IMG/VR virus record: IMGVR_UViG_3300037076_000291
Coordinates: 1 to 20,487 of that record
Strand: one strand, 5' to 3'
Length of the DNA stretch: 20,487 nt
From: a virus
Every line of letters starts with the position of its first letter. Within the stretch, counting starts at the first letter, position 1. Made by a program: the position numbers and the translations under genes. The notes beneath the pieces are model-generated. The model was not told the origin of the DNA. It searched no databases and saw only the letters and a program-made list of their open reading frames with translations. This document shows, one piece after another, positions 1,352 to 12,853 of the stretch.

Positions 1352-2056
1352 ATGAGTGATGGTCTTTGCAAGTGCGGCTGTGGTCAAAAAACGACAATCT
1401 CTAAGTGGGGAGAAAAGCGATCTGGATACAAAAAAGGCCAGTCGAAAGATTACATCAACGGCCATGCTCAAAAACTGCCCTACTCGTTTGTCTTGGAAGA
1501 TCGAGGCTACAGTTCTCCGTGCTGGATATGGAAGCGACATATCAGCCGCAGGACTGGCTACGGGCTTTTGGGAAATAGCGAAACGAAAATCCTCGGAGGC
1601 AGCAGGCGCGCACATCGGTACTTCTATAATCTGCTCATCGGACCTGTGCCTACCAAACTGCAGCTTCACCATCTCTGCCACGTAAAATGCTGCGTCAACC
1701 CCAACCACCTGGAGCCACTTACGAGTTCCCAGCACATGCGAAAAAGCCCGCAAGCTAAACTTTCTCTGGAACAGATTGACGAGATTGTGGAACTCCGGAA
1801 AAACAAAGCGCAACTGAACGACATTGCAACGCGATACAATATCCACCCAGTCTACGTACAGATGCTCTGCCGAAAAGCTGAAGTGTGGGTTTACTCCCGA
1901 CTCACAGAGACTCAAGTGCAAGAAATCTTGGAGCTTCGACGGAACAAAACAAAAATGAAAGACATCGCAGCGCTGTACGGAATCAATCCCGGATCTGTAG
2001 GCGCCCTCTGCTGCAAAGCGGGCGTGTGGGTCAACAAACGACCTGTCCGTAAATAA
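1352..2056 (+). CDS. HNH homing endonuclease with two HTH repeats
   Basis: A probable free-standing homing endonuclease of 234 residues, coded against the surrounding minus-strand genes. Residues 5-12 hold a short cysteine cluster (CKCGCGQK). The HNH/zinc core is LQLHHLCHVKCCVNPNHLE at residues 103-121, with the paired histidines H106/H107 and the conserved NPNHL. Two similar helix-turn-helix repeats follow, at about 138-178 and 184-226 (each reads roughly LxxxQxxEIxELRxNKxxxxDIAxxYxIxP); they probably recognise the DNA target. The ATG at 1352 has a GGGAG ribosome site nine bases upstream. The gene sits between the portal and a small basic gene, in a 48 to 45 nt wide frame of non-coding DNA. 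Its codons are AT-richer (many AAA, CAA, AAT) than the neighbours, which suggests recent arrival. Cleavage activity and target are inferred from the family. Confidence 0.9.
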   Translation: MSDGLCKCGCGQKTTISKWGEKRSGYKKGQSKDYINGHAQKLPYSFVLEDRGYSSPCWIWKRHISRRTGYGLLGNSETKILGGSRRAHRYFYNLLIGPVPTKLQLHHLCHVKCCVNPNHLEPLTSSQHMRKSPQAKLSLEQIDEIVELRKNKAQLNDIATRYNIHPVYVQMLCRKAEVWVYSRLTETQVQEILELRRNKTKMKDIAALYGINPGSVGALCCKAGVWVNKRPVRK

Positions 2057-4263: not shown

Positions 4264-4686
4264 CTACCACAAACCATTGAACGCCCCGGCTTGGGCCAAC
4301 TCCGTCATGCGCCGATTAAACCGAAACCCACTTTTCCTACACGAGCCTTCTTTACCATAGAAGCCCAACATATCTAACTCTGCATGGACCATTTCGTGAT
4401 ACACGGTCATCATGCAGAGATCGCGCCAACGGCGAAGTCTGGGGTGTATGAAAATGAGTTGCATCTCTTTTTCTATCTTACGCGGAGGTAAACCGGAAGC
4501 CGATACCCATGTTTGCTCATACGCGACCGCTCGCATCCTCCCGTGGCTGGATTTGCATACCTTGGCCGAAAACTCTATCTTAGCTATCTGCAACTTGTCA
4601 CCAAAGTAGCGCTTGTTGGCTACAAGACAGAACCTCCGCAAATCCGCGTTAGTCTGCATATCAGTTAGTTTTTTCTTAGCTTTCAT
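4264..4686 (-). CDS. SprT-like putative zinc metallopeptidase
   Basis: A 140-residue protein of the SprT-like group, the small zinc metallopeptidase fold related to Spartan. The catalytic signature HEMVH is at residues 97-101, preceded by the usual amphipathic helix (LCMMTVY). The N-terminal half holds a strand pattern (IAKIEFSAKV, then EMQLIFIHP) typical of the fold. The frame is open further upstream, but the ATG at 4686 overlaps the terminase stop as ATGA and has GGAG five bases before it; upstream translation is an arginine-rich shadow. In the family the third zinc ligand is usually a histidine in an HG.xF context; here the matching place reads KSGFRF at 118-123, so that ligand appears to be missing. 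The role in phage is unknown; cleaving DNA-bound or head proteins is possible. Confidence 0.82.
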   Translation of the reverse strand: MKAKKKLTDMQTNADLRRFCLVANKRYFGDKLQIAKIEFSAKVCKSSHGRMRAVAYEQTWVSASGLPPRKIEKEMQLIFIHPRLRRWRDLCMMTVYHEMVHAELDMLGFYGKEGSCRKSGFRFNRRMTELAQAGAFNGLW

Positions 4687-6491
4687 ATCCACTCCAGCCT
4701 GTTCATCTTTGCTTTTTTCTTCGAGTATATCTCCAACTTGCGAAGGTGGTCGTTGCCGGTCGTCACCAGAGTCCCCATGCCGGTGACGCTGGGATCTTTG
4801 AGCCACTCGGGCATCTGACCGCGCTGAGAGGAGAGTCCTGCGGTTTCGAGTTCTTCTTTGGTGAAGAGTACGTTCTTCGATACTTTCGTTTGACAAGAAG
4901 TTGGATGGTACTGCTCTTTCGCGATCCACGCGAGTAAAACGCTCATTAAAATGTCATCGTGCCCGACAGATACGTTCCATCGCCAGCCCATCTCCATCTT
5001 CGCTTTTTTCATCTGCGACACCAAAGTTTTGTCCTTCGGCACTACCTCTTTGCGATGAAGCGCTGTGCGGTACAGATTGAACATCATCCTGCGATAGCGA
5101 TCAGAAGTCTCAAACCCGAAAGCGCTTCCCGACTTCGACTTATCCATCTTGTCGTCGCGGCCCTTCCAGAGATATTGATTAGGGTAGTAAATGCGATCAC
5201 GAAGTTCGCGCATCGTGATGTAGCCGATGTTGTTCAACTCGACGTTGAGCATGGCTGAATTGAAATAAAATCCAAGGGCGGCGGCGATGGACGAAAGCTC
5301 CTCGGGAGACACACGGGCCGCATATATCGCTGCGACGTTCCCGGTCTCGGCGTTGATGCAACCGAGCGCGGCATAATCACCGGGGGCCATCGTTGATTCT
5401 TCACCGCGCGCCGAATCTACACCTATGAAGTAATGGTGCTTGGGCTGAGGTGTCTCATACAAACAAAGTGGGCCATCGATGGACTTACGCAGCACACCGT
5501 GCTTATTGTCCGGAGTCAGATCGCAGTGCCCGCGCCACGGAATTTTCACAACTGAATTTTCAGCAAACTGCATCTCTTCGATGGTGAACGCGGGGTTGCC
5601 GGTGGCAACAAACGCCTCGGTTGGGTCAGCCGGAAATTCTGCTCTCCAGCGCTCGACAATCCCTTCGCACCGCGTTGAAAGAGTCTCACGGAACCAAGCC
5701 ATCTGCGACTTAGTGAGTTTGACTTTCTTCCCTGTCTTCCAGTGCCTGATGTCATTCATCAAATGCCGCTCATACTCATCGCGTGGAGCATCGAGCGCAA
5801 ACTCTTCCGGCAACTGATACGCTGGGTCGTCCCACCACGGTAGGAATATCGGCAAGAACTCATTGTCGCCCGCAACCGCAGCTTCCCACGCTTGATAGTA
5901 AGACTCTCCCGGCCCCTCCATTCCGTTTGCTGTACTCTCGATCATGCACACGTTGTTAGGGTCTTTACTGAGTGTGTTCATGAGCGAAGTGAACACGCCT
6001 TCGTAGGGATAAAATCCAGCCTCCGTGAGATGAAGAAAGCTAGATGTCAGCCCACGCTGACCATGAACTGTTGCTGCTGTGTGGTGCGTGAACTGCGAAT
6101 CGGGACCGTCGGAGTGAGGCCAAATCAAAGTCTTCTTCGTTGGCTTCTGCGCCCCTGGATAAATCTCCTTGCAGTCCTCACGGAACCCACAAGCCATCGC
6201 GAAATTTGCTGCAGCCACTTCAGCGTTTTGCGCAATGCATCGCGCAAGCGCTCCTGGATGCGCGATGCAATGCGCTTGGCCGACACCCGTAGCAAGAGTA
6301 GAGAGCCCCACACGACGCCCTTTCAAAAAGATCATGAACAGTCGGCGGCGTCGAGCGAGATGCTCGTCGGCCAATTGAAAAACTTCCTTCTGCTGCTGGC
6401 GAAGTGTGAACGGGATGAACGTGCCCTCATCACGGTCACGAATATTCAACTTCGCGAAGAACCGTTCGACATGGGCGAGACGCAACGGCAA
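4683..6491 (-). CDS. terL: Terminase large subunit
   Basis: The ATPase and nuclease motor that cuts the concatemer and pumps DNA into the prohead through the portal. The product has 602 residues. The ATPase part shows a Walker A variant KGRRVGLST (57-65), Walker B LHLTEAG (153-159) and the coupling motif IESTANG (184-190). RAEFPADPTEAFVATG (283-298) is the typical linker to the nuclease. The RNase H-like nuclease has acidic residues in GVDSARG (D359), NVELNN (E418) and GHDD (D512/D513). The only plausible start is TTG 6491, with AAGGA eight bases before it and a stop in frame just upstream. The N-terminus (LAHVERFFAKLNIRD then FIPFTLRQQQKEVF) looks nearly complete. An HNH gene lies directly upstream with only 11 bases between them. 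Downstream, the stop is coupled to the SprT-like ATG. Confidence 0.95.
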   Translation of the reverse strand: MPLRLAHVERFFAKLNIRDRDEGTFIPFTLRQQQKEVFQLADEHLARRRRLFMIFLKGRRVGLSTLATGVGQAHCIAHPGALARCIAQNAEVAAANFAMACGFREDCKEIYPGAQKPTKKTLIWPHSDGPDSQFTHHTAATVHGQRGLTSSFLHLTEAGFYPYEGVFTSLMNTLSKDPNNVCMIESTANGMEGPGESYYQAWEAAVAGDNEFLPIFLPWWDDPAYQLPEEFALDAPRDEYERHLMNDIRHWKTGKKVKLTKSQMAWFRETLSTRCEGIVERWRAEFPADPTEAFVATGNPAFTIEEMQFAENSVVKIPWRGHCDLTPDNKHGVLRKSIDGPLCLYETPQPKHHYFIGVDSARGEESTMAPGDYAALGCINAETGNVAAIYAARVSPEELSSIAAALGFYFNSAMLNVELNNIGYITMRELRDRIYYPNQYLWKGRDDKMDKSKSGSAFGFETSDRYRRMMFNLYRTALHRKEVVPKDKTLVSQMKKAKMEMGWRWNVSVGHDDILMSVLLAWIAKEQYHPTSCQTKVSKNVLFTKEELETAGLSSQRGQMPEWLKDPSVTGMGTLVTTGNDHLRKLEIYSKKKAKMNRLEWI

Positions 6492-6502
6492 AATGGATAT
6501 CC

Positions 6503-7207
6503 TTACTTAACTACAGCAATTTCTCCGTGAAACTTGAGCGCCGCTGCGTTGTAAATCTCACGACCTTCTTCCGCCGTGTCGCACATTCCTAAATTGTAAC
6601 TGACGCCTTTGTACATTATCTTCACTTGAAATCTACCGCTGTACACGCCGCCCTTCTTTATCGGAAAGACACCTTTTACTCCCGTTTCACTATCGCAGTG
6701 CGCAGGCGACACTGCTAAGTTTTGGTAATTAGTGACGGCAAGCAAATTCTCGTCTCTGTTGTCTAGAGTGTTTCCGCTGAGGTGATGTCCTACTCGTTTA
6801 TCTGACCTGTCCAAGCCGAGGATTTGACGCGCCATGGGTATGTTGTATTTCTCCCCGCCGACGTTGTACCGATACGCGTAGTATTTCTTACGAAGAAGTG
6901 TGGCACACCATTTGTACTTCTGCAACTCTTCAACCCGGTAAGGCTTGACCATAGTTACTTTACCCTGCGTCAACGGAATGTAACCTATACCGTCGATGAT
7001 CCACCCTTTACGAATGTCCAGGCAACCGCAAGATTTGTACGCACTACGAAGCAGATCGAATCTCTTCAGAGACTGTACCTCTCTACACACGCATCGGCAC
7101 ATCCACATAGGACTTGTACCGGAGTACCGATCAAAACTCAGCACCGTCCATGAATCGAAAACTTGCCCGACCATATCTAACTTCGGGTATGCTGGAACTG
7201 GGGTCAT
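6503..7207 (-). CDS. HNH homing endonuclease with AP2 domain
   Basis: A probable homing endonuclease of 234 residues placed directly before the terminase gene, on the same strand. Residues 12-62 form a cysteine-rich module (VGQVFDSWTVL, MWMCRCVCREV, SCGC) also found twice in the gene at 11855-12766. The HNH core is RVGHHLSGNTLDNRDENLLA (138-157), with H141, H142, N150 and N154. An AP2-type DNA-binding domain fills 174-230 (GVKGV, YSGRFQVKI, NLGMCDTAEEG, AAALKFHGE). I chose ATG 7207 because AGGAG stands six bases upstream; the frame upstream to 7330 is an unnatural translation through the regulatory leader. Cleavage near the terminase gene of related phages is the expected biology of such genes, but the target is unknown. 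It does not interrupt the terminase frame. Confidence 0.92.
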   Translation of the reverse strand: MTPVPAYPKLDMVGQVFDSWTVLSFDRYSGTSPMWMCRCVCREVQSLKRFDLLRSAYKSCGCLDIRKGWIIDGIGYIPLTQGKVTMVKPYRVEELQKYKWCATLLRKKYYAYRYNVGGEKYNIPMARQILGLDRSDKRVGHHLSGNTLDNRDENLLAVTNYQNLAVSPAHCDSETGVKGVFPIKKGGVYSGRFQVKIMYKGVSYNLGMCDTAEEGREIYNAAALKFHGEIAVVK

Positions 7208-7271
7208 AAGTCGCTCCTTCAAGCGATGAGGTCTTGGCCAGGTGCTCATACACCGTGACCCCACTATTATA
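7208..7271 (-). promoter_or_regulatory. Leader of the HNH-AP2 gene: TATAAT box and two hairpins
   Basis: Reading the minus strand, a perfect TATAAT (7271-7266) lies 58 bases before the ATG at 7207. No good -35 hexamer is seen 16-18 bases upstream of it. A small hairpin GGTG-TATGAG-CACC (7254-7241) is centred about 40 bases before the ATG. A second hairpin TCGCT-TGAAGG-AGCGA holds the ribosome site AAGG in its loop. The same order and spacing is found before the other minus-strand HNH gene (12767-12829). Confidence 0.5.
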
Positions 7272-11030: not shown

Positions 11031-11874
11031 TAGTGGGCTCCTCAATCTTGCTCTCATGACCTGTCCGCACCACCATGCTGTTCCTATTCCTGACCTCCTG
11101 CATCAAGTCATCGAACCGGCTATCGTTCTTTTTCACAACCCCCGGATCGTGAATTGACAAAACCCGATCAGGATTATCGTTGGTAAAAAGCTGATCGTCT
11201 TCAAAAATAGAAATGCCATTCGCACCGTAGACTTCGACAGGCTGCATGCGTAAAGGATCGTCCCACGCAAGTTCTCCTTTGAGCACCTCGCCAAGCCAGA
11301 AATCGTCCCAAAGTCTATCGGGAGTAGGCAGGTGCAATCCAAAGCCGATATCCAAAGTTTTAGGCCACGCGGCAAAATAATCCTCGCGCCAAGTTGCTGC
11401 AACGATCATCTCCATCGCTTTGCGCGACAGCCAAATTCCAACTCCGCCGTGAAAAAAGTCAAAGTAGCGCATCGGCGTCTTAAAGACTCCGCCGAGTTGC
11501 AGTTTGCACGGAAACAAACCAGCGTACGAAAAACTTTCGAGACCGGCTTTGAGAAGACGATCCGGCCAAAACCAAGTATCGTCCATGGCCCTCCATAAGT
11601 AGCTGGCCCCTTGATCCAAAGCCCATCGGCACGCAGCTTGATTTTTCAAATGAAGATGCGTCTTCATATCCGATCCCGGAGAGTGGAGGATCTCCTCATC
11701 TCGCAGTCCCGTCCGTTCCCAGTCACCTTCGTGAACGGCATCGCCGAATACAAACTTGTACGGAATTGGAGAATCGACGAGGAACTGCGCGCGGGCTATC
11801 TGACGATAGTGCCAGCGGGAAGGGTGGTGCGCAGTTAAGATAGCCGCTACTACTTTAGGCTGTGGCTGAGGCAT
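11023..11874 (-). CDS. GT31/fringe-like glycosyltransferase
   Basis: A 283-residue cytoplasmic protein that looks like a GT-A glycosyltransferase of the galactosyltransferase/fringe kind. The donor- and metal-binding acidic motif is RAMDDTWFWPDRLLKAG (95-111). GGVGIWLSRKAMEMI (143-157) is the typical glycine turn and helix. WDDFWLGEVL (189-198) stands where the family has its catalytic EDV-like acid pair. The N-terminus (KVVAAILTAHHPSR) is the first strand of the fold. There is no signal peptide or membrane anchor. The ATG at 11874 has GGAG six bases upstream and overlaps the end of the HNH-type gene by 20 bases. It would transfer a sugar from a nucleotide donor; donor and acceptor are unknown. 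It is the last enzyme of the cassette. Confidence 0.72.
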   Translation of the reverse strand: MPQPQPKVVAAILTAHHPSRWHYRQIARAQFLVDSPIPYKFVFGDAVHEGDWERTGLRDEEILHSPGSDMKTHLHLKNQAACRWALDQGASYLWRAMDDTWFWPDRLLKAGLESFSYAGLFPCKLQLGGVFKTPMRYFDFFHGGVGIWLSRKAMEMIVAATWREDYFAAWPKTLDIGFGLHLPTPDRLWDDFWLGEVLKGELAWDDPLRMQPVEVYGANGISIFEDDQLFTNDNPDRVLSIHDPGVVKKNDSRFDDLMQEVRNRNSMVVRTGHESKIEEPTNA

Positions 11875-12766
11875 TACGTTTCTCCATTCTGTTTTTTCTT
11901 TGCCATGCGCTTTTAGTCGCGCTTAGACACATCTTGCAGCGACTCCTGGGCGTCTTTCTCTTTCCATCAGAAACTGTGACCTTATTGTCTCCCTCGATGA
12001 GATGCCCACGCATGCAACGCCCGCCATACTTCTTTCTCTTATTAACAGCCTGTTCTTGTGCAGTGGCCCATCGACAATTTCCCAATTCGTAGTTTCCATC
12101 ATTGTCGGGGAATCGGTCGATAGACTTACCGCCAGGGCATTCTCCCATGTCTCGAAAGAAATTTTCAAAATTCAACCACTCAGGACTCACAGTTATTCCC
12201 CTACCGCCATAGTCTTTCCACCTAGGCTTGCTGGGATTAAAACACCTTGCAAGCATCCCCTGCCAAATGTGATAAGTCCGAGTGTGAGACATCCCGTGCG
12301 TAGTCGAAGCCTTGCCTCGACTGTCCCGATACCAGCATCCACAACTTTTGGTCATACCATCAAGCAAATTAAATTTGCTTACTACCGTCTCTTTTCCGCA
12401 TTCGCACTGACACAACCAAAAGCGTGTCTTTTTCAATCTGCCTTCATTACGCAAGCAAATGACTGTTAGCCGCCCGAACACTCTGCCAGTCAAGTCTTGC
12501 TTCGAAGTATTTGCTTTGGAGCGAGCAATAAAACCTTCACGACCAATGCAGCCGCAACTAAGAGTACGACCAGCTCTTAACGTGTATTTACTGGTCGAAA
12601 CTTCTTTCCCGCAGTCACAACGACAGCGCCACAACTCCATTTGCTGAGCATTGCGACCGCCGGGGCCGATTACAGTCAATCGACCGAATTTTTTCCCGAG
12701 GTAATCTTCGATTAGAATGTAAGGCACAGCAGCGCCATGTGGTAAAGTTTTCTTTGGGGTCGTCAT
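11855..12766 (-). CDS. HNH-type putative homing endonuclease
   Basis: A 303-residue protein of a type common in phages as a free-standing homing endonuclease. Two tandem cysteine modules occupy 24-73 (FGRLTVIG, LWRCRCDCGKEV, SCGC) and 94-144 (FGRLTVIC, FWLCQCECGKET, SCGC). Each probably binds zinc and DNA, and each resembles the N-terminus of the HNH-AP2 protein at 6503-7207. The nuclease-like part spans about 160-242 (YHIWQGMLARCFNP, YGGRGITVSPEW, SIDRFPDNDGNYELGNCRWAT, EQAVNK). A last zinc ribbon has CMRGH (251-255) and CKMC (277-280). I chose ATG 12766, with GGAGGA just before it. It splits the sugar cassette, since the glycosyltransferase downstream starts within its end. The nuclease function is inferred from the family pattern. 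Confidence 0.85.
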   Translation of the reverse strand: MTTPKKTLPHGAAVPYILIEDYLGKKFGRLTVIGPGGRNAQQMELWRCRCDCGKEVSTSKYTLRAGRTLSCGCIGREGFIARSKANTSKQDLTGRVFGRLTVICLRNEGRLKKTRFWLCQCECGKETVVSKFNLLDGMTKSCGCWYRDSRGKASTTHGMSHTRTYHIWQGMLARCFNPSKPRWKDYGGRGITVSPEWLNFENFFRDMGECPGGKSIDRFPDNDGNYELGNCRWATAQEQAVNKRKKYGGRCMRGHLIEGDNKVTVSDGKRKTPRSRCKMCLSATKSAWQRKNRMEKRNASATA

Positions 12767-12853
12767 ATTCGTTCCTCCAGAACGATGAGACATGAATCGG
12801 GAGTTCACGCTCCCGGTTCCCCCATTATAGAACACGCTGGTGGCTAAAGTCAG
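12767..12853 (-). promoter_or_regulatory. Promoter and two-hairpin leader of the 12766 HNH-type gene
   Basis: On the minus strand, CTGACT (12853-12848) and a perfect TATAAT (12829-12824) are 18 bases apart, a good sigma-70-type promoter. It lies in the only sizeable gap of the sugar cassette. A hairpin CGGGAG-CGTGAA-CTCCCG (12815-12798) is centred about 40 bases before the ATG. The second hairpin, TCGTT-CTGGAGG-AACGA, carries the ribosome site GGAGG in its loop and ends two bases before the ATG. Order and spacing match the leader at 7208-7271. Confidence 0.62.

Follow-up and report, generated by a model that had tools for sequence, protein, structure and literature searches.

A putative promoter-plus-RNA leader common to unrelated phage endonuclease genes, with a helix that may close the start region in read-through messages

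Two HNH endonuclease genes on the minus strand of a viral DNA carry leaders, W1 and W2, built on one plan. Is this plan a selected RNA structure, how far does it extend, and what does it do for the genes behind it? The window, i.e. the whole stretch of DNA analysed, was 20,487 nt long (IMGVR_UViG_3300037076_000291, positions 1 to 20,487). A sequence-only reading had noted in both leaders a TATAAT 57–58 bases before the ATG, a hairpin with a six-base loop centred 40.5 bases before the ATG (here P2), and a hairpin with the Shine-Dalgarno (SD) sequence in its loop (P3), the fourth pair of which is T-A in one and C-G in the other. All of these features were present in the sequence (Table 1). On the minus strand, W1 reads TATAAT-GGGGGAAC-CGGGAG(cgtgaa)CTCCCG-attcatgtctca-TCGTTC(tggag)GAACGA-at-ATGACGACCCCA, and W2 reads TATAAT-ag-TGGGGTCA-c-GGTG(tatgag)CACC-tggccaagacctca-TCGCT(tgaagg)AGCGA-ctt-ATGACCCCA.

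The coding parts, which had been said to differ, do encode two distinct proteins, but these have the N-terminal zinc-ribbon domain and an M-T-(T)-P start in common (31% identity, E=4e-9 by BLASTP; phrog_374 matches both). The W2 gene lies immediately upstream of the terminase gene. No further copies of the leader were found in the window with covariance model R1 (see below) with filters off, the next match scoring 12.3 bits. A third HNH gene (1352-2056, plus strand), with HNH_3 and a resolvase-like HTH, is opposed to the minus-strand operon and is without the leader.

Table 1. Positions of the leader elements and genes in the window, and of the 164-171 aa family in other contigs
Feature	Positions	Strand	Basis or remark
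W1 -10-like TATAAT	12824..12829	-	57 bases before ATG 12766
W1 P1 5' strand UGGGG(G)	12819..12824	-	between -10 box and predicted transcription start ~12817; covariance model; weak form, 4-5 bp
W1 hairpin P2 CGGGAG(cgtgaa)CTCCCG	12798..12815	-	sequence and relatives' alignment
W1 hairpin P3 TCGTTC(tggag)GAACGA, SD in loop	12769..12785	-	sequence, shuffles, relatives' alignment
W1 P1 3' strand CCCCA, codons 3-4 of HNH gene	12755..12759	-	covariance-model match
W1 HNH endonuclease gene, 303 aa, zinc ribbons and HNH	11855..12766	-	phrog_374 E=3.4e-76
W2 -10-like TATAAT	7266..7271	-	58 bases before ATG 7207
W2 P1 5' strand TGGGGTCA	7256..7263	-	contains predicted transcription start ~7259; covariance model
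W2 hairpin P2 GGTG(tatgag)CACC	7241..7254	-	sequence and relatives' alignment
W2 possible mini-hairpin GG(ccaaga)CC, between P2 and P3	7230..7239	-	minimum-energy folds; tentative
W2 hairpin P3 TCGCT(tgaagg)AGCGA, SD in loop	7211..7226	-	sequence, shuffles, relatives' alignment
W2 P1 3' strand TGACCCCA	7199..7206	-	spans U and G of AUG and codons 2-3; covariance-model match
W2 HNH endonuclease gene, 234 aa, zinc ribbon and HNH	6503..7207	-	phrog_99 E=4.6e-20, phrog_374 E=4.9e-14
Leader-preceded 164-171 aa family	L277:11841-12332		
Leader-preceded 164-171 aa family	L270:6524-7015		
Leader-preceded 164-171 aa family	L324:2144-2656		

The compensatory pair had been taken to indicate selected RNA structure. 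In shuffles that kept the SD in place, the SD hairpin alone gave p=0.02-0.03 per leader, so the two leaders by themselves were insufficient proof; the proof was supplied by their relatives. A search of 2.9 million viral contigs for more homologous leaders with covarying stems gave 17 distinct leaders, W1 and W2 included, with compensatory changes in both hairpins. A 70% relative from protein searches (L006) carried TCGGA(tggagg)TCCGA at the equivalent place. L157, L162, L246 and L223 came from a DNA pattern of the SD hairpin, L270 and both copies in L277 from a stricter version, and L316, L324, L331, L338 (five contigs) and L359 from a pattern that required neither the SD nor the CGA arm. L324b (20.4 bits) and L430 (30.6 bits) had escaped every pattern and were detected only by covariance models, R1 and R2 respectively, for which the leaders had been aligned under guidance of the structure; each is positioned exactly where an HNH gene begins (phrog_3377, E=5.5e-48, for L324b; phrog_99, E=1.8e-37, for L430). 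The start of the -10 box was 59-64 bases from the ATG across the 17 leaders. Two more pattern scans, which returned many chance matches and no new members by the covariance model, were used as negative controls.

No credible leader match was found in 50,697 records of named phages, and the HNH genes of the window had no DNA-level match among named phages. Nor was a credible leader found among the listed candidates of a covariance-model scan of 17 cellular genomes, or in a pattern scan of 765 cellular genomes. Rfam gave no gathering-score match in the window, and at a relaxed E-value none over the leaders that reached a family threshold. Membership in described Rfam families, including OMEGA/HEARO and int-alpA, was rejected on these scores. 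Four HNH leaders with a CGGTAA loop (L007, L036, L059 and L063) had a P2-like hairpin but matched neither the models nor the third helix described below, and were left out. An SD hairpin is present in three of them (L007, L036 and L059), and the group is possibly a distant or parallel design.

Covariation was computed for 15 aligned leaders of the 17. In these, P2 and P3 were 100% paired, and paired cells amounted to 95.3% (85.3% when shuffled). Seven pairs were changed on both sides, with 26 double-change cells against 7.3 in shuffled alignments. The covariation score was 0.235, compared with 0.071 for shuffled alignments (0/500 as high) and 0.014-0.038 for slid controls. Examples are CGAGAG/CTCTCG in P2 of L277a, and TCGATC/GATCGA and TCGGA/TCCGA in P3 of relatives. 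The SD was within the P3 loop in all members. CATCG/CGA, CCTCAT and ATGACNCC were constants of the search patterns, and invariance there was partly imposed. On the other hand, the double-changed pairs (P2 pairs, P3 pairs 4-5 and the outer pair of P1, the third helix) and an insertion in P1 are free of this bias.

Which genes follow the leader? That it travels with phage HNH genes was right as to the association, but too narrow. Nuclease-family genes follow in 14 of the 17 cases: HNH genes of several kinds (phrog_374, phrog_99, phrog_3377, HNH_2 and HNH_3), endonuclease VII (L331, E=4.3e-11), PDDEXK_5 (L338, E=2.4e-7) and DUF559 (L157, E=8.6e-11). The L223 ORF, a cut-off zinc-ribbon ORF, was assigned from its N-terminus. 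The remaining three leaders precede one family of 164-171 aa with the pattern GQCHxLAxALHEILG...H(Y/F)V(I/V)QCPD, for which searches of Pfam, PHROGs, NCBIfam and phage records gave nothing. Its Cys-His pattern suggests a putative hydrolase; a structure prediction for the 164-aa family reached a pLDDT of 41, too poor for structure search. Both the RNA structure and its association with nuclease genes are well supported.

The element did not end at the ATG, where the sequence-only reading had closed the leader. The covariance-model matches extended into the gene, from 12824 to 12755 in W1 (48.6 bits) and from 7263 to 7199 in W2 (47.1 bits), because CCCC in codons 2-4 is the pairing partner of the GGGG just 3' of TATAAT. 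This third helix, P1, spans the start codon too in most relatives, W2 included. In type A leaders, GGGGTC(A) pairs with (T)GACCCC, or GGGGTGTC with GACACCCC, the outermost pair being either T-A or A-T. GGGGTC(A) was always coupled to ATGACCCC, and GTGTC to ATGACACCCC, which amounts to a two-base insertion matched on both strands. In type B (W1, L006 and L277a), P1 consists only of GGGG with the CCCC of codons 3-4 and falls short of the AUG.

The duplex energy of P1 was -15.5 kcal/mol for cognate strands, -11.1 for strands of the other subtype and -7.3 for shuffled ones, and 0/10000 re-pairings were as low. W1, the very leader named in the original finding, had the weakest P1 (-9.1 kcal/mol, as in L277a; W2, -15.0). 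The four pairs of the GGGG/CCCC core provide no covariation evidence, since the core never varies. The strand match holds between subtypes; within a subtype cognate and non-cognate strands were equal, so independent changes in P1 are few. As far as comparison of the leaders goes, P1 is supported by its subtype-matched strands. Moreover, all 17 ORFs start with M-T-(T)-P despite their unrelated families, as would be required by the P1 pairing. This fits a constraint acting on the RNA, in which case codons 2-4 of unrelated proteins would be set by RNA pairing.

Many minimum-energy folds of type A resembled a cloverleaf in which a mini-hairpin GG..CC separates P2 from P3; this mini-hairpin is tentative because it showed no covariation. 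A tRNA-like fold and known ribozymes were considered and set aside, the leaders having no Rfam or ARAGORN support for either.

A -10 box was found in 17/17 leaders, as TANA[AC]T (TATAAT, TATACT, TACAAT or TAGAAT), and the DNA upstream of it was unrelated. The box lies 0-3 bases before the G-run, and the predicted start at +7 falls within or past the G-run. There was no -35 consensus in the 17 leaders (2.94 matches vs 2.79 by chance), and TGn motifs were few and without consensus, so the TATAAT might not act alone; the promoter type would resemble those of an alternative or phage-modified polymerase. With a start 7 bases past the -10 box, in or after the G-run, the leader's own transcript should be without most or all of the P1 5' strand. 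Each of the two window genes follows, after 15-28 bases, another gene of a run on the same strand, and read-through is therefore expected.

These features suggested a switch. At roughly 55%, we favour the reading that the leader is a mobile promoter-plus-RNA cassette of about 75 nt, belonging to freestanding phage endonuclease genes and made up of the -10 box, an RNA in which helix P1 encloses two hairpins, and the first codons. The G-run, situated after the -10 box and before the transcription start, would form P1 with the CCCC of codons 2-4, mostly together with start-codon bases. Messages reading through from upstream phage genes would contain the whole G-run, so that P1 could form and hide the start region. 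Messages from the leader's own -10 box would begin in or after the G-run; their start region would be easier to open, with the SD exposed in the P3 loop, and the nuclease would be translated mainly when its own promoter fires.

Predicted energies agreed with the direction of this switch. Opening the start region was predicted to cost 13.1 kcal/mol in the read-through RNA vs 8.1 in the own-start RNA, and the cost was lower in the latter in 17/17 leaders. The real 5' part added 4.9 kcal/mol to the predicted cost, and a shuffled one 1.3. The two RNAs differ only in the energy needed to open the region as a whole: for the AUG, the mean predicted probability of being unpaired is 0.48 in either, and at about 8 kcal/mol the start region of the short RNA would still be partly paired. 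The GUC at the predicted start may pair either with the start codon (in P1) or with GGC behind P2, giving a bistable RNA.

The same parts could serve simply as a constant aid to expression, which appears unlikely. The promoter would start the message, P2 would shield its 5' end and P3 would present the SD; P1 would be no repressor, the G-run being a promoter discriminator and CCCC merely inherited first codons. The position of the SD in the P3 loop of every member would suit such an aid, as would the invariance of GGGG/CCCC and the predicted starts that adjoin P2, where the frequent GUC could extend P2 on the GGC. However, a discriminator is not expected to change jointly with the first codons, as the P1 strands do between subtypes (the two-base insertion and the T-A or A-T outer pair), and the preservation of codons 2-4 in unrelated nuclease families also speaks against this explanation.

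Control through a factor, either the nuclease product or a shared phage or host factor, is quite unlikely. Such a factor could account for the CUCA junction before P3, which is nearly constant (14/17) and has no role in the three helices, being unpaired in the model; in some members its CCUC could pair with GAGG of the SD. The autocontrol hairpin of T4 gp43 lies at a similar distance (PMC3014915). On the other hand, the P2 loop is poorly conserved, its fifth base, A, alone being nearly constant, and autoregulation by the product is hard to reconcile with downstream proteins from several unrelated families; a factor of the phage or host common to all could still act. The T4 gene 43 RNA operator, which is bound by protein in the autoregulation of DNA polymerase, also differs in that it includes neither a promoter nor a P1 (PMC3014915).

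For the switch cassette we have so far assumed mobility. The leader is carried by the phage group of the window (terminase identity 71-100%), and also by phages with a distant terminase (25%, G003 and G056) or with none detected (G002 and G054), some of the other records in this comparison being fragments. At least three terminase types are represented. The borders are sharp. In two relatives, BLASTN homology to W1 begins exactly at TATAAT (12829/12830), and W2 and the leader of G004 have 96% identity confined to 7275-7199, the upstream DNA and the following ORF being unrelated. In L270 and L277b, near-identical ORFs follow different leader alleles. Empty alleles were found for both window sites: site 1 is without leader or HNH gene in G004, and site 2 without either in G005. 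Presence and absence at a fixed site, as for freestanding homing endonuclease cassettes, was therefore seen at both, and together with the sharp borders and the mixing of alleles it indicates that the leader plus ORF behaves as a present-or-absent cassette, encoding in most cases a putative homing enzyme.

Homology between unrelated ORFs that ends at TATAAT and codon 3, and different leader alleles before near-identical ORFs, could also mean that the block acts mainly as DNA, as a recombination patch or a nuclease target (inverted repeat GGGGTCA...TGACCCC) through which cassettes exchange nuclease ORFs, but this is very unlikely in view of the P2/P3 covariation and the fixed distance to the SD and ATG, which indicate RNA and translation; ORF exchange may still occur as a by-product.

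Two other features of these phages were observed. The large terminase of L461 (G001:C1:62900-66700), G004 and G050 is a 965-aa frame with an insert of about 361 aa at residue ~518. The insert starts with C, ends in HN|S and matches LAGLIDADG_3 and an intein splicing domain, i.e. it is an intein; the window terminase (4683-6491) is uninterrupted. In G001, G004 and G050 the leader at the site neighbouring the terminase precedes the 164-171 aa family. In L308, an 82-kb phage (G002, around L246), seven above-threshold Rfam tRNA matches lie within 1.5 kb upstream of the leader, so that its nuclease cassette adjoins a tRNA cluster.

One design was reused across nuclease families and terminases, and control and enzyme thus seem to be inherited as separable parts. 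A bolder proposal, which we make tentatively, is that an undescribed RNA family is itself the travelling part. This promoter-plus-RNA-switch module, bordered by the -10 box and the CCCC codons, would move between phages, join nucleases of unrelated folds, dictate M-T-P, and silence a new mobile gene in read-through RNA upon its landing in an operon. Such a module may delay the expression of selfish mobile genes until the time is right. If the switch is real, it would explain how a mobile nuclease can settle in a late operon and yet escape expression by read-through. It would also provide a searchable signature of mobile nuclease genes (-10 box, G-run, two hairpins and ATGAC(N)0-3CCCC) that could reveal unrecognised families, such as that of 164-171 aa.

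The int-alpA RNA (Rfam RF02996) is a structured RNA directly upstream of related phage HNH genes, with another sequence and fold; we found it there at L013:1393-1458, L015:1423-1488 and L016:1004-1069, and L092, L032 and L044 looked similar by eye. The HNH relatives L033, L041, L056, L081 and L053 have other strong hairpins over the SD, e.g. a 15-bp stem in L041, and structure at the ribosome-binding site (RBS) seems common before such genes. In Aeromonas phage 25, the RBS of seg43(25) is unsequestered and is closely preceded by a stable hairpin (PMC2988022). P2 likewise stands 5' of an open SD, but no closing helix or second SD hairpin is described for seg43(25).

The closest parallel is in T4-type phages. 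In I-TevI, I-TevII, I-TevIII, segB and Aeh1 mobE, a hairpin forms on the read-through RNA, and the transcript of the gene's own late promoter is unable to form it (PMC2988022). The likeness to the T4 control hairpins that the sequence-only reading had drawn was apt, although it overlooked the decisive helix, P1. In both systems the genes encode endonucleases; in the present leaders, too, a structure is predicted at the translation start, with a putative own promoter overlapping its 5' strand, so that only the read-through RNA should be closed. They differ in construction. The T4-type control is a single hairpin, whereas the present leaders have two hairpins within a closing helix, and in type A it is the start codon with codons 2-3 that lies in the closing stem, the SD being in a loop. 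The T4 late promoter TATAAATA is absent, its place being taken in all members by one of the four -10 boxes given above. Finally, every T4 homing endonuclease so far described has a hairpin of its own, whereas here one RNA design is common to several unrelated nuclease families.
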